Part shown: in pieces, positions 18,948 to 43,812 of the stretch
How the letters are laid out: each line of letters opens with the position of its first letter
Position numbering within the stretch: position 1 is the first letter of the stretch
From: Rhodoferax antarcticus ANT.BR
GTDB taxonomy: Bacteria > Pseudomonadota > Gammaproteobacteria > Burkholderiales > Burkholderiaceae_C
Direction: 5' to 3'
DNA: 64,000 bases
NCBI RefSeq assembly: GCF_001938565.1
Contig: NZ_MSYM01000013.1
Location: 993,496-1,057,495 of the forward strand
The notes under the pieces: generated by a model
Databases searched by the model: none
What the model was told of the DNA's origin: nothing
What the model saw: the letters and a program-made list of their open reading frames with translations, nothing else
Translations under genes and position numbers: made by a program

Positions 18948-19130
18948 CTACAGCCCAAGTTCTTCGTCGGTCAGGGTGCGGGCTTCGTTTTCCAGCAGGA
19001 TCGGAATGCCGTCGCGCACCGGGTAGGCCAGGCGGGCGCTGCGCGAGGTGAGCTCCTGCGTCTCGCGGTTGTATTCGAGCGGTCCTTTGGTGACCGGGCA
19101 TACCAGCAGTTCAAGTAGTCGTGTGTCCAT
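18948..19130 (-). CDS. Trm112-like zinc-ribbon protein (YcaR family)
   Basis: 60 residues: [20 protein letters not shown] then [20 protein letters not shown], the compact Trm112/YcaR pattern. Only one cysteine of the usual N-terminal pair is present (CPVTKG), as in many proteobacterial members. Trm112 proteins activate methyltransferases in eukaryotes; the bacterial role is unclear, but the gene usually sits between lpxK and kdsB as here. It starts 17 bases after the lpxK stop. Confidence 0.9.
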
Positions 19131-19147
19131 GGCGTGATGATAGCTTC

Positions 19148-20182
19148 TCAAAAGCTGGTGGGGAGGTCCAGCAGGGCGTTGGTATGCGCGTCCAGCGCGG
19201 CCCAAAAGTCGTCTGGCAGCACCGAGATCAGCGGCACCGCCAGTGCATCCGGGCACAGTGGCCACAACTTGACCGCATCTTTTTCAGTACAAATCAGCCT
19301 GTAGCCCTTGTATTCATTGCGCGAGAAGCTCTTGAAATCATAGTGATCCGGTAAACCCAATGTGTGCGCCAGCGTCAGCCTCTTGGCGCGCAGCATGCTG
19401 AAAAACACCTCGGGCTGGGCAATGGCGGCCAGCGCCAACACCGGCTTGGCGCTGGCGCCTGGCGTGTCGATCAGCCTGGCGAGTGGGACTTGCTCACCAC
19501 TGGCGGTGACGGCGTGGTCGGCCAGCGTGCGCTGGATGCGATAGCCATCAAACGCCGGCTCGATGCCCGAGCGCAGCACCAAGTCCAGCTTGCGCGGCCA
19601 GGGCTCGCGCAGTGGGCCCGCTGGCAGCAAAAAGCCGTTGCCCACACCGCGCTCATCAAACACGCCAATCTCCAGGTCGCGGTGCAGCGCCAGGTGTTGC
19701 AGCCCGTCGTCGCTGAGGATGATTTGGGTGTCCGGGTGGCGTGCCAGCAGGGCACGGGCTGCGTCAATGCGCCGCTCGGCCACAAACACCGGTGCGCCAG
19801 TGCGCCGGTGGATCAGCGCGGGCTCGTCACCCACCTCTTGTGCAGCGCGCTCACGGGTGACTTCCAGGCAACCGGGTGTGCTGCGCCCGTAACCCCGAGA
19901 AATCACGCCCACCCGAATGCCGCGCTGGCACCAATGCTCCGCTAGCGCGATCACCACCGGCGTTTTGCCCGCGCCCCCAGCGACCACATTGCCCACCACC
20001 ACCACGGGTACCGGCACGCGCTGAGCCTTAAATACGCCCCAGTGGTAGAGCGTCGTACGGATGGCGACCAGCAGCCCGTAGAGCATGGACATCGGCCACA
20101 ACAGCCAGGCCAGTAACCCGCGCTGCGTCCAAGCGCGTCGTAGCGTTTGCTGCCAGGCGGGCGTGGGGGTGAGTGCAGGCAT
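19148..20182 (-). CDS. lpxK: Tetraacyldisaccharide 4'-kinase
   Basis: 344 residues. An N-terminal membrane anchor (about 22-42, [20 protein letters not shown]) is followed by the P-loop [20 protein letters not shown]. LpxK features [44 protein letters not shown] and [11 protein letters not shown] are visible. It phosphorylates the 4' position of the lipid A disaccharide at the inner membrane. It follows exbD in the same direction, but a 458-bp gap with two large hairpins lies between. Confidence 0.96.
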
Positions 20183-20640
20183 GGCGGGTTGATCGTGTAG
20201 AAATTGAGCAACGCCTACGGGTCAGCGCGTGCCTTGAGCGTAGAGGCCGCAAGCGCTAAACTTTTTGCCGCTGCCTCGGCGCAGCGGCAGTTTTACGGCC
20301 AGAACAGGCTGCAAGCCTTGGGCGGCAGCGGGTGGGGTATTGGGGCCCACCTCATACGCGCTTGGCTTTGCGAAATCGGCGGTCCCCAATACCCCACCCG
20401 CTGCTGCGAGCGCGCGGGTTCGCCGAAAGGAAATAGCCGGGTTCCTGAAATGCATCGCGCACCCCGACTGTCTCAGGCCATATGGGGTCAGGCAGGGGGT
20501 TGATTTCGCAAAGCGCAGCGCGTATGAGGTCTCCTGCCTGACCCCATGTGGCCCGTCACGCCAGTTAGCCCATCCATGAATGCACCCTGTAGTCAACCGG
20601 CACGCCGCTTCAAACTTCACTCGCACAAACTAAGGGTTGA
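20183..20640. repeat. Gene-free region with two inverted hairpin elements
   Basis: No credible gene. Element A: perfect 21-bp arms at 20325-20345 and 20384-20404, loop 20346-20383. Element B: 21-bp arms at 20476-20496 and 20533-20553 with a single G-T wobble, loop 20497-20532. The arms of A and B differ in sequence, but the B loop contains GATTTCGCAAAGC..AGCGCGTATGAGGT and the A loop contains the same 29 nt on the opposite strand with two mismatches. A smaller GC hairpin (GCCGCTGC..GCAGCGGC) precedes at about 20268-20288. Confidence 0.8.
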
Positions 20641-21072
20641 CTAATTGTTGGCCCCGGCAGCGCTGCTCGACTGCGTGGCAAAGGTCACCTGCGAAAGCCC
20701 GGCGCGTCTGGCGGCCTCCATCACCGTGATCACCGCCTGATGCCGGGCGGTGGCGTCGGCGTAGATGATGACCACCGATTCCTTGCCTGCTTTGGCACCC
20801 TCTTGCAGCGCTTGCGCCAACTCAGCCACGTTGCGCCCCGCCACCGGCACCTTGTTCACGCTGTAATTGCCCTCGCTGTTAACTGACACCAGCACCTCCT
20901 TGGGGTAGTCGCGTTGAGCTTCGGTGTCAGCCAGTGGCAGCCGCAGCTCGATCTCGGTGAACTTGCTGTAGGTGGTGGTGAGCATCAAAAAGATCAGAAT
21001 CACCAGCAACACGTCGATGAACGGGATCAGGTTGATTTCCGGCTCTTCCTTGGGGCGGGTGCGAAAGTTCAT
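20641..21072 (-). CDS. exbD: ExbD/TolR-type biopolymer transport protein
   Basis: 143 residues. One N-terminal membrane helix (about 17-35) carries the proton-path aspartate in INLIPFIDVLLVILIFLMLT, followed by a periplasmic domain ending ARRAGLSQVTFAT. With ExbB it forms the proton-driven motor energising TonB-dependent uptake (or Tol). The short N-terminus MNFRTRPKEEPE is typical of the ExbD found beside lpxK in betaproteobacteria. It lies 94 bp after exbB. Confidence 0.92.
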   Translation of the reverse strand: MNFRTRPKEEPEINLIPFIDVLLVILIFLMLTTTYSKFTEIELRLPLADTEAQRDYPKEVLVSVNSEGNYSVNKVPVAGRNVAELAQALQEGAKAGKESVVIIYADATARHQAVITVMEAARRAGLSQVTFATQSSSAAGANN

Positions 21073-21166
21073 AAAGTCTCACAGAGTCACGATTGAGCGC
21101 CGCCGGGCCGCCCCAAGACACGAGGGCCCCCTCGGGGGGCAGCGAAGCATATGCAAGGGGGCATCA

Positions 21167-21793
21167 TCATTTTGGCAAGCTGATCAGATGCCGCGCCAAA
21201 CGCTCGGCCGCCAACTCCAGTGTCAGCAGAAATCCATCCACTCGGGCGCGAAAGTAGCGCCAGAAAATCAGCGAAGGTATGGCAATGATGAGGCCAAACG
21301 CGGTGTTGTACAGCGCCACCGAGATGCCGTGCGCCAGTTGCGCTGGGTTACCGCCGGTGGCACCGCCGGGTGCTTGTGAGCCAAATATCTCAATCATGCC
21401 GATCACCGTGCCAAACAGGCCCAGCAGCGGTGCGGCAGAAGCGATGGTGGCCAGCGCGCTCAGATAGCGTTCCAGCCGGTGCGCCACCAGGCGGCCACTA
21501 CTTTGCATCGCCGCGCGCAACTCGTCGTCGCAGCAGCGCGGGTTCTGTGCCAAGGCGCGCATTCCGCTGGACAGCACTTCGCCCAGCGCCGAGTTTTTTT
21601 CAAGCTGGTTGATCACGTCGGGGCCGGGCACGCCGTTGCGGGTGACGGCCATTGCTTCGTCAAGCAAATTGGGCGGTGCTACTTTGGCGACTTTGAGACT
21701 GATGAAACGCTCAATCACCAGCGCCAGCGCCAGTATGGAGCAGGCAATCAAAGGCCAGATGGGCCAGCCTGCGGCTTGTATGATGGAAAACAA
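21167..21793 (-). CDS. exbB: ExbB/MotA/TolQ-type proton channel protein
   Basis: 208 residues from TTG 21793 (FSIIQAAGWPIWPLIACSI), placed eight bases after GGAG; an upstream TTG at 21826 is less likely. Three membrane helices: about 8-30, 125-150 (ATIASAAPLLGLFGTVIGMI) and 165-190 (ISVALYNTAFGLIIAIPSLI). It pairs with exbD in the inner membrane. It is first in the minus-strand run towards adk and divergent from xseA. Confidence 0.92.
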   Translation of the reverse strand: MFSIIQAAGWPIWPLIACSILALALVIERFISLKVAKVAPPNLLDEAMAVTRNGVPGPDVINQLEKNSALGEVLSSGMRALAQNPRCCDDELRAAMQSSGRLVAHRLERYLSALATIASAAPLLGLFGTVIGMIEIFGSQAPGGATGGNPAQLAHGISVALYNTAFGLIIAIPSLIFWRYFRARVDGFLLTLELAAERLARHLISLPK

Positions 21794-22108
21794 AATAGGA
21801 CTCCGCTGAAGAGATAAGCCGGTCAATTATGGCGCAGCACTTTGACAGATTTGCGGGCTGACAACACACAAGTTCTGTGGATAACTTTGTGGAGAACCCG
21901 TTGCAGAAGTGGCTGCAAGCCGCGCCCCGCTTGGTGTCTGACAGATTGATGATAAATTAGGCAGCTAAAAATACAATGAAATCAACGACATTTGACGAAC
22001 ATTCGAGATTCAACGCTATCCATTTTGGCACCAAGTTTGTTTCGTCAAACTGTGGATGACTTGACTTTATGAAAACCGAAGAACAGCATTTGTCAAGGGG
22101 GTTGGATC
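21794..22108. promoter_or_regulatory. Divergent exbB/xseA intergenic region with DnaA-box-like motifs
   Basis: 315 bp with no gene. TGTGGATAA at 21876-21884 is an exact consensus DnaA box (TTATCCACA on the minus strand), and TGTGGATGA at 22051-22059 differs by one base. The region is AT-richer than its surroundings and should hold promoters for both genes. Two boxes 175 bp apart are too few to call an origin. Confidence 0.4.
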
Positions 22109-40855: not shown

Positions 40856-43812
40856 TTAGCGATCCCGCGGGCGGCGTTTTGGCTTATCGGTGGGTAGCCG
40901 GCTGGTGAGTTTCTGGTACATCTCGAAAAGGAAGGCCACGCGCTCGGCGTCGCTTTTATAGTTTTTTTTGCCACCACTGGCCTCGTAGACCTTGTCCACG
41001 GCGGCGTCGAGTTTCTGGTGCGCCTTGAGCAACTCGGGCGGCATGGTCAGGGGGTCATACAAATCCGCCAGTGTGGCAGGCTGCGGCCCGGACTGGAACT
41101 GGGCGCGGGCATCGAGCACGGCTTGCGCTGCAGTTTCAATAGCTGCTTGCGCTTTATCTATATGGGCTAGAGGCTGATTTTACTCTGAACTTTGTGCTAG
41201 ATCGGGCCAGGGGAAGTTGTTGTAGACGATGGTGTTGGAGTAGCGGTAGTCGCTTTTCAGACGACCGCAGGTAAAACGCATCCATGCGTTGTGCATGGTG
41301 CATGACAGGATGCCAAAGTGGAAAAGGGTGGCGTCAGGCAAGCTGTAAACCAGATTGCTGACGATGACTTCTGCACTGATGAAGCCAATGGGCACGTAAG
41401 TTCGCCGTTCGGATGACACGCTGGGAACCAGCAGGTAGTCGCTTTGCGGCTGTCGTAATTCCGCAAACAAAGCGGGTACTTTCGCGTTTTCACGCGTCGC
41501 CACCTTTGAACTCGCTGCTCGCATAGCTTTGACAGCTTGCACGCGTCGCACGACTTCTGGCAATTGCCGAAGCTCGCTGGGCGGACAATCGACGAGCCAC
41601 AAGCACCAACGCGCTGTCCCATTGATAAATTCGTCGGCACCCAAGAATGGTCGAACCCACTTTTCGGCTTTTGGTTCAATGACGATGAGGCGGTTTTTAT
41701 CCTCATCGGACAAAACCAAATTGCCTGCATCGGTTGGCTTGCTGCCATTTACCAACTCGATAACCTCACAAATCGGTGTTCGACGCTTACTGAGCGCCAC
41801 ATTTGGCGCATCGACCAAATAAGGGTTGATATTGGCTACCGCAACCGCGTGTGGGGCACCTCGGATGTCGTCGTATTCAAAAATGACTTTGTCTGGTCGG
41901 TCTTGCAAGCCAAAGCCGATGATGACGCAATGGACAGCGGCGTTGCCCAAGGCTTCGTTGCTCCAGCTGAATGTGCGGTGCGCAAAGTGGATGTGCACAC
42001 CCTGCGCCAGCAGCCAACCCCACAACCCCACAACACGCCTACCTGTTCACCTTGGGTGATGCTGTTGGTCGAGACAAAGGCGCACCGGCCTTGGCTGTCT
42101 GGCAGAGCCAACTCCTGAGGTGTGGGTGGTGCGGATGTCGGGGGCGATTTCAAAAAGCGAAGCGTATGAGCCCCCGGCATCTGCGCCGCCCGCGCCGGTG
42201 CGGCCACATGCAAATACTTCGCCGCTTTCACATACCAAGCTGCAACATAGTCTAGGTCTCCTGCGCCATTGATCCCGTGCATCACCAGTTCAAGGTCCGT
42301 CTTTTGGCCTTTGGACTGGTAGGACTTGCCCAAAAACGGCGGATTCCCCAGCACAAAGCTACACCGCTGCGCTGGCAACACCTCATTCCAATCCAACGTG
42401 AGCGCATTACCATGCACAACATGCGGCGTGGTCTTGAGGGGAATACGCGCAAAGTACAGGCCAAACTCCTCACTCACCCGTAGGTTCATCTGGTGGTCCA
42501 TCAGCCACAAGGCTACCTGCGCAATCTGCGCCGCAAACTCTTCAATCTCGATACCGTAAAACTGATCGACGTTGACACCAATCAGGCTGTGCACGTCCAG
42601 CGTCTGCTGGCCCGAGGTGTCACTGGCGCGCAGCACGGCCAACTCCAGCTCGCGTAACTCGCGGTAACTGATCACCAGAAAATTGCCACACCCGCAGGCC
42701 GGGTCAAAAAATGTCAGCGTGCGCAGCTTCTTGTGAAACTCAAATAGCTTGTTCTTGTTGCCCTTGACCTTCTCAAATTCTGCCCACAGCTCATCCAGAA
42801 ACAGCGGCTTGATCAGCTTGAGAATGTTTTCCTCAGACGTGTAGTGCGCGCCCAGGTTGCGGCGGGCCTTGTCGTCCATGATGCTCTGGAACAGGCAGCC
42901 GAAAATAGCCGGGCTGATGGCTGACCAGTCCAGCGCGCAGGCATCCAGCAGGGCTTCGCGCATGGCCGTGGTGAAGTCGGCCATCGGCAAGGGTTCTTCA
43001 AACAGCTTGCCGTTGATGTAGGGAAAGCCGCCACCTGTTCGTCTAGCGCCTGGCTGCGCTTGTTGGCTGCGTTGCCAACGCCTGCGGCACCGTCGGGCGT
43101 GTTGAGCGTTTGGAAAAGCTGCGCCATGCGCGAGCCCAGGTCTGAGCCGTCGTGCGCGGTGCGCTCTTCAATGAATGTTCGCAGCGCCTGCGCGGGCTGG
43201 AAGATGCCGGTGTCGTCGGCAAACAGGCAAAACAGCAGGCGCACCAGCAGCACTTCCAGCGCGTGGCCACTGTAGCCGCTGGCCTTGAGCGCGTCGTGTA
43301 ACTTGCCCATGCGTTCGGCGGCTTTGATGTTGACCGGGTTTTGCGGCTGGATGGTCTGCACCTTGTAACCCGCTACAAAACCAAACAGTTTGATGTGTTT
43401 GTGCAGGTCTTTCAGGGTGAACTCAACGGTCTCGCCGGTGGACAGGTGGTGCACCCGAAACCGGGCAAAGTCGCAGACGATGACGATTTGCGGCAAGTCA
43501 CGCTCGGCAATGCCCGGGAAAGTACGACAGCGCCTGCGTCAGCGCAGCGTCCAAATTTTTGCCGCGCGACTTTTGTTCGACCAGCAGCATGCCGGGCCAG
43601 AAGAGGTCGACAAAACCGTCGGTTCTGGCGTGTTGGCCGGGCAGCTTTTTAACCGCATGCTCGAAGGTGGCGACACGTTTGTTGGTGATGCCAAAGATTT
43701 CAAAGAAATCAAGCCAGAACGGCTTGCCCTGGCTGTCTTCATTGGCCGTGTCAGCCCAGGTGCGGCTGAACGCATGCGCGCGGGACTTAATTTCGTTCCA
43801 GGAGAGGGGCAC
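40856..43812 (-). pseudogene. Broken MmeI-type (type IIL) restriction-methyltransferase
   Basis: Reading from 43812: an N-terminal nuclease-like domain (DGFVDLFWPG..LLVEQKSRGK, a D..EXK pattern), a spacer (43496 to about 43045), an N6-adenine methyltransferase core with motif I FFDPACGCGNFLVISY and motif IV LGNPPFLGKS, a target-recognition region (VSNLVYSLPDATLFHFGILS, SKTIVYNNFPWP-like YSNTIVYNNFPWPDL), and the C-terminal tail LADLYDPLTMPPELLKAHQK. The frame is broken by an extra C in CCCGGG (43513-43518), an indel near 43040, an 8-bp tandem duplication CCCCACAA at 42018-42033, and a TAA at 41180-41182. Such proteins cut and methylate in one chain; this one cannot be made whole. Confidence 0.9.
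41118..41172. repeat. Dispersed repeat-like stretch inside the methyltransferase pseudogene
   Basis: CAATAGCTGCTTGCGCTTTATC then TATGGGCTAGAGGCTG-like sequence fits the dispersed repeat. On the coding (minus) strand it encodes PLAHIDKAQAAIETA in the frame of the C-terminal domain, just after the TAA nonsense codon. Confidence 0.7.

Follow-up and report, generated by a model that had tools for sequence, protein, structure and literature searches.

Rickettsia palindromic elements (RPE) are palindromes inserted in frame in coding genes, and the attC sites of integrons are recombination sites that are read as a folded single strand, with bulges or mismatches marking the strand. The ends of IS200/IS605 elements are likewise read as a folded single strand (PMC8266576), and REPINs follow a plan of inverted doublets with strand-specific hairpins (PMC3116915, PMC8266576), the copy number of REP/REPIN sequences amounting to hundreds or more (PMC8266576). 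The β-proteobacterial repeat element (BRE) is, in the part of its description available to us, 75-91 bp long, with a G+C content of 63.7-78.9% (mean 69%); it is intergenic, with some copies lying wholly within coding genes, occurs in Rhodoferax ferrireducens and other Comamonadaceae, and is variable among related genomes (PMC3110155). A member would show a sequence identity above 70% to the described BRE; the element is presented as an oriented repeat, sometimes in tandem, the available text containing neither a structure nor a mechanism (PMC3110155).

In the window, that is the whole stretch of 64,000 nucleotides of Rhodoferax antarcticus ANT.BR DNA that was analysed, two divergent hairpins lie between exbD and lpxK. 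We propose that this hairpin doublet is a miniature gene-less mobile element read as a folded single strand, a reading to which we give an even chance of being correct.

Anatomy of the hairpins and distribution of the core

The original prediction placed two hairpins at this locus, with 21-bp arms of different sequence pairing perfectly in A and with one G·T in B, and with a common 29-nt core filling both loops on opposite strands. Both hairpins are found where they were placed, beyond chance: the A arms, compared over 30 nt (20322-20351/20378-20407), are 90% complementary, the B arms (20476-20496/20533-20553) are 95% complementary with their single G·T, and the 29-nt loop cores (20349-20377 and 20502-20530) are inverted copies that are 93% alike. 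At up to three mismatches the core pattern matches twice in the window and not once in 100 shuffles, and the folding of A and B, each taken on both strands, lies far beyond that of 200 shuffles (z -5.9 to -9.6). The 21-bp arms are present, those of A being perfect, but pairing does not end with them: the stem runs on for a total of 26-27 bp, is interrupted by a GAT/TGA internal loop, and pairing resumes within the supposed loop. Hairpin A (20325-20404, core on the minus strand) consists of 27-bp arms (20325-20351/20378-20404) flanking the GAT...TGA core at 20352-20377, and hairpin B (20476-20553, core on the plus strand) of 26-bp arms (20476-20501/20528-20553) flanking the core at 20502-20527. 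The spacer that separates them (20405-20475, no strand assigned) has arm-adjacent parts that are, by alignment, partly conserved in other copies.

The core occurs well outside this locus. With at most three mismatches, 88 cores are found in 20 of 89 Rhodoferax genomes, two of them in the genome of the window, and the backwards control gives none; the suggestion that these might be the only two copies in all relatives does not hold. Twenty-six inverted pairs account for 52 of the cores and one same-strand pair for two more. The remaining 34, some of them at contig ends or beside a decayed partner, are without a second core nearby at three mismatches, and they count against a mobile doublet. The distance between paired cores is 119-219 bp; as a rule an A-type core is joined by a B-type core, the two pointing away from each other, and such pairs occur in many gene contexts; convergent hairpin pairs also exist (L317, L328). 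The searched plasmids and phages contain no match. Complementary arms, which it was proposed to look for at every core, are present in 71 of the 85 distinct hairpins, with 23 or more pairs out of 27; the refuting case of cores without flanking complementarity does not hold either, although 14 hairpins are truncated, shifted, decayed or chimeric. On average a copy's own arms pair at 23.9 of 27 positions, against 17.1 when 3' arms are swapped between copies, a control whose 95th percentile is as high as 24 because A arms resemble each other. Single-core chimeras that join arm types (L020, L034, L038, L070) are not used as evidence and may be assembly errors: three come from metagenome bins, and the L020 genome is in about 320 contigs.

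The proposed fold, examined in 58 of the 85 hairpins, has 96.2% of its cells paired (70.9% when shuffled) and a covariation of 0.655, against 0.197 for shuffled and 0.060-0.112 for slid controls, and 27 of its 33 pairs show changes on both sides. The covariation counts of alignment A1 are raised by the mixing of A and B arms in it, and alignment A3 takes in two reverse-strand matches. Within the core, GAT opposite TGA is followed by one variable pair (G-C in 53 and T-A in 30 of 85 cores), CGC/GCG, an AAA bulge (84 of 85) and GC-GNA-GC (79 of 85, N being A in 37, C in 37, T in four and G in one). A GNA loop closed by two G-C pairs is a very stable DNA fold with a Tm of 78 °C, as reported in the portion of the source consulted (PMC4686876). 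Such a mini-hairpin is present in 128 of 163 hairpins and in 38 of 67 distinct cores, many of which are related, compared with 3.4% of shuffled cores; this count drops one obvious false match (L205) and keeps one other spurious core. Among 63 arm-distinct hairpins, L205 included, the paired fraction is 0.87-1.00 up to stem position 26 (0.98 at 25, 0.87 at 26) and falls to 0.76 at position 27 and 0.49 at position 28. G is common at stem position 16 (53 of the 63), and no motif is seen at the stem foot in the same set, where the information content of a position does not exceed 0.32 bits between -28 and -50 and 0.37 bits between +28 and +50. Because the hairpin scans require GA[T/C]...TGA together with most of the initial 20-22 pairs, these features are partly there by construction. 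The stem end and the strand bias described below are not: in the scan behind the stem-end profile, the requirement covered the majority of pairs 1 to 20 and did not extend to that end. Judged from sequence, the stem ends at a fixed length, 26-27 bp from the GAT/TGA loop.

Covariance models extend this plan to a superfamily. Model R1 has matches in 50 of 399 family genomes and 24 of 141 genera, and the broader model R2 in 74 of 89 genus genomes (0-29 per genome), and in 9 of 399 order genomes, three of these outside the family; five of the 74 genomes from another family have matches as well. Such matches may count one hairpin on both strands. The superfamily plan is a stem of 26-27 bp whose sequence is mostly free, interrupted by the GAT/TGA loop with its covarying pair and topped by a mini-hairpin, often GC-GNA-GC; outside the Rhodoferax core the apical hairpin varies by lineage and the arms vary by copy. 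GATT/ATGA or GATG/CTGA frames 52 of 59 rows, a constancy outside Rhodoferax that is partly built in because the model and the scans started from GAT/TGA. Since the stem sequence is largely free while length, pairing and cap are kept, the recogniser probably reads a folded single strand and not a sequence.

Strand bias and changes in the arms

Under a filter that treats the two kinds of mismatch alike, reading the arms on the core strand gives 140 G·T against 17 A·C (81 of 97 hairpins), a pairing threshold favouring G·T having given 132:16. The bias persists in all 97 hairpins (169 against 44) and after thinning for similarity (82 against 9, with 40 hairpins richer in G·T, two richer in A·C and eight ties), and it is found again in the other superfamily hairpins (118 against 16; 42 hairpins against one). 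As a G·T on the core strand reads A·C on the other, the core strand is the one whose fold is kept, and the bias favours recognition of one strand. That strand also folds better than its complement, both as DNA (-36.1 against -31.6 kcal/mol for A and -26.8 against -25.0 for B) and as RNA (-61.6 against -57.6 and -54.7 against -45.2 kcal/mol). One core with differing but complementary arms, a fixed stem end and pairing on one strand support the prediction of an element recognised by its loop and by stem shape. The further prediction of a folded single-stranded substrate fits as well, with the reservation that RNA would fit too.

Could the functional molecule be an RNA? Transcription along the core strand would yield a hairpin of about 80 nt, with protection or processing at the foot of its stem; the divergent cores would be served by spacer promoters or by antisense transcription. 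The tolerance of G·T (G·U) on one strand and the stronger folding of the core strand as RNA fit this at least as well as they fit DNA, and they weigh against the DNA reading to that extent. Moreover, the probable relative BRE lies, in the part of its description seen, in the region of BprJ1, an RNA of about 80 nt detected by Northern blot (PMC3110155), and 27+26+27 makes 80; this kinship with BRE, however, rests on description. The hairpins of a doublet are on opposite strands, so that a single neighbouring gene cannot account for both by read-through, and convergent pairs also occur. No Rfam family fits (window positions 19000-22000 give 10 sub-threshold matches, miRNA-like and others), and GNA triloops are described, in the portion of the source consulted, as a DNA mini-hairpin (PMC4686876). 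We regard the RNA explanation as the main rival, possible but somewhat doubtful.

Complementarity of the arms could also be kept by template copying, either quasipalindrome correction or hairpin-primed synthesis, with no need for selection on the fold. In three species of genus g112 the trxB site has different outer arms that nonetheless pair in each species, and between L088 and L097 hairpin B shows six double changes that keep pairing, no single change, and one additional double change that unpairs a copy. Relative to its arms, the loop is inverted in L011, in one species at the trxB site and probably at an aldolase-like site, which suggests that the cruciform is acted on. On the other side, hairpin A of the same two loci shows eight single and only two double changes, and at five sites in the close trio G060/G078/G004 the changes fall on one side, often breaking the pair, and no double change keeps pairing in both copies. 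Resident copies are therefore not strictly maintained, close orthologues losing arm pairs one side at a time. Correction of a duplex should not favour G·T over A·C on the core strand, and the fixed stem length would need another cause. More distant comparisons show many paired double changes and single ones too, and the sum over all comparisons, a part of which cross arm types, is 97 double changes that remain paired, 68 single changes that remain paired and 126 that leave a copy unpaired. The idea that arms are rebuilt by template copying thus agrees with some distant copies of one site, which differ by paired changes, and disagrees with close ones, which differ by one-sided changes. Selection on the fold and template copying are both possible causes of the complementarity, but template copying as the explanation of the family seems improbable to us.

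In comparison with orthologous or standard copies, a core inverted relative to conserved arms is observed in L011 (1601-1726), in L319 and perhaps in L330, as if a cruciform had flipped.

Search for a mover, insertion and copies inside genes

The arrangement in inverted doublets with strand-specific hairpins is that of REPINs, as far as the excerpts of PMC3116915 and PMC8266576 describe them, and a conserved Rhodoferax RAYT (TnpA_REP) might move the elements as REP/REPIN sequences. A Y1_Tnp match is indeed present in 79 of 89 genomes, in many of them a single one of about 240 aa. The suggested link to a RAYT was nevertheless not found at the 32 Y1_Tnp loci read, a part of all matches: they contain no core with fewer than seven mismatches (eight strings with 7-8 mismatches occur in seven loci) and no GAT/TGA hairpin. 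Hairpins of the family carry no conserved foot tetranucleotide, the RAYT is found also where the core is absent, and 11 of the 13 RAYT loci inspected carry a palindrome of their own instead. In these (L132, L134-L140, L142, L147, L148) the conserved gene of about 240 aa is followed by AATTGG..TCTGACCCCAATT or variants, and then by a gene that we take to resemble glutamate synthase. This origin of the elements is quite unlikely. A linked recombinase fared no better: blastp of 20 stretches of about 10-17 kb from three g112 genomes, three of the stretches having no hairpin in the scan, tied no gene shared between loci of one genome to the hairpins, the one shared paralogue pair being judged unrelated.

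On the evidence of spacing and sequence, the window doublet is an insertion between exbD and lpxK. The inserted interval (20183-20640, no strand assigned), from the exbD stop to the lpxK start, is 461 bp here, against 7-107 bp in 25 of the 29 relatives read, the locus having been obtained from 30 of 89 genomes including that of the window. The four other relatives (L167, L172, L174, L180 in genomes G061, G075, G090, G079) have spacers of 471-528 bp; their GC-rich insert contains neither core nor GAT/TGA hairpin and is thus another insert, the spacer being in this respect a re-used insertion site. Three close species whose flanks match at 91-95% have the doublet in opposite orientations at fbaA-purC and at one further site. 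When they are aligned in one common sense, the likeness of these elements is 69-71%, compared with 70-73% between copies at unrelated loci and 83% for same-orientation copies at one site. A flip in place was dropped for this reason, and separate insertions fit better. No target-site duplication could be defined at the insertions, which counts against a mobile doublet. Another short palindromic repeat, CCTCTAGCCCTT...AAGGGC..TAGCTAT with its variants, adjoins doublets at two sites (L011, L182-L184).

Copies are also found inside genes. The second superfamily hairpin of the window (42119-42196, plus strand), with 27-bp arms and the core GATTTCAAAAAGCGAAGCGTATGA at 42146-42169, lies in frame within an MmeI-like restriction-modification gene. 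Residues 1-264 and 301-323 of the ORF (41836-42990, minus strand) are covered by the alignment with MmeI (5hr4), leaving an insert of 36 residues that includes the translated hairpin; the palindrome in frame and read through, a feature of RPE, is thus present here, and the same peptide recurs in another copy within this genome (L260). The MmeI-like gene as a whole (41180-43812, minus strand) looks broken in the assembly, as its parts lie in several reading frames. One open UvrA-like frame of G248 contains a 224-bp doublet three times, with the other two copies 80-82% alike to it and the edges of the unit 2-13 bases from the outer stem feet, which marks the doublet as the moving unit.

Divergent model matches about 1.35 kb apart recur in several genomes (for example G093:C4:54718/56080, G017:C156:14703/16104, G003:C27:15877/17215); in L252 and L254, the two loci of this kind that were read, both hairpins are within a single large ORF. 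An autonomous version, with a gene between divergent hairpins, was considered and rejected: the L252, L253 and L254 pairs, 1.1-1.4 kb apart, each lie within one ORF, the intervening gene at L261 is split over frames, and the 7.6-kb pair at L095 spans several ORFs, none of them recognised by eye as a transposase.

Resident terminators or mRNA stabilisers inherited with their genes are the least likely explanation, since, even though several sites are orthologous across species and the 17 of 24 contexts with clear neighbours (seven unclear ones dropped) comprise no divergent, 11 co-directional and six convergent cases (two being the same site), the hairpins are missing from the exbD-lpxK spacer in 25 of 29 relatives, copies lie inside coding frames and the flanking sequence inspected has no T run after either window stem. 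A dif/Xer reading of the core was considered as well and dropped.

Proposed mechanism and comparison with known systems

The mechanism we propose for the miniature mobile element rests on recognition of a shape. The moving unit would usually be the doublet of two divergent hairpins. Recognition would be of shape and on one strand, through the 26-27-bp stem with its almost free sequence, the GAT/TGA loop with its covarying closing pair and the small apical hairpin, which in Rhodoferax consists of an AAA bulge and GC-GNA-GC and is a very stable DNA fold. A putative nuclease or recombinase acting in trans would bind the core strand when it becomes single-stranded, during replication, repair or uptake, and would insert the doublet between genes and sometimes in frame inside genes. 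The copies able to fold would be those that spread, their arms drifting between moves while pairing is still demanded. The data show the anatomy of the elements, their pairing on one strand, their dispersal and their insertion; from these we infer a substrate of single-stranded DNA, an enzyme provided in trans and folding as the condition for spread. Could this be a mobile DNA family whose members are recognised almost entirely through the geometry of a single folded strand, with a 26-27-bp ruler of almost any sequence from the GAT/TGA loop to the foot, a DNA mini-hairpin as cap and a putative enzyme that regenerates or demands the complementarity of the arms? We advance this stronger form tentatively.

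Short bacterial repeats are usually defined by their sequence, whereas here it is stem length, pairing on one strand and a cap motif that recur across many genera. Free stem sequence with a kept shape points to an unrecognised shape-reading enzyme or RNA partner, and the family offers a natural test of whether selection or copying maintains the arms of palindromes. Our searches of the openly accessible literature brought up nothing that describes such a strand-specific anatomy.

The likeness to attC sites and to IS200/IS605 ends is one of working and not of membership, no integrase or IS200/IS605 gene being tied to the hairpins. With RPE the elements share insertion in frame, but they occur in other organisms and have another sequence, and their fold is conserved more than their sequence, as far as the consulted part of the RPE source allows the comparison (PMC3733652). 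They resemble REP, BIME and REPIN sequences with their RAYT as short palindromes with strand-specific hairpins, dispersed between genes and arranged in inverted doublets. They differ in their longer stems, in their free arms with a conserved cap and in the traits that were not found, namely a GTAG-type foot tetranucleotide, a flanked RAYT or other linked transposase, and a high copy number (0-29 model matches per genome). The closest resemblance is to BRE, compared here by description and not by sequence, and from a source available in part: Rhodoferax core copies are mainly inverted doublets, with one same-strand pair against 26 inverted ones (two same-strand copies also lie 182 bp apart in G773), but size and composition agree approximately, superfamily matches being 73-83 nt long with a G+C content of 0.60-0.80 bar one at 0.53, and presence in Rhodoferax, an intergenic position, copies wholly within coding sequence and variability between related genomes are shared. 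By size, G+C, host and copies in genes, the superfamily is probably BRE, and the anatomy described here gives this repeat family, hitherto little more than a name, a definition with which it can be searched for.
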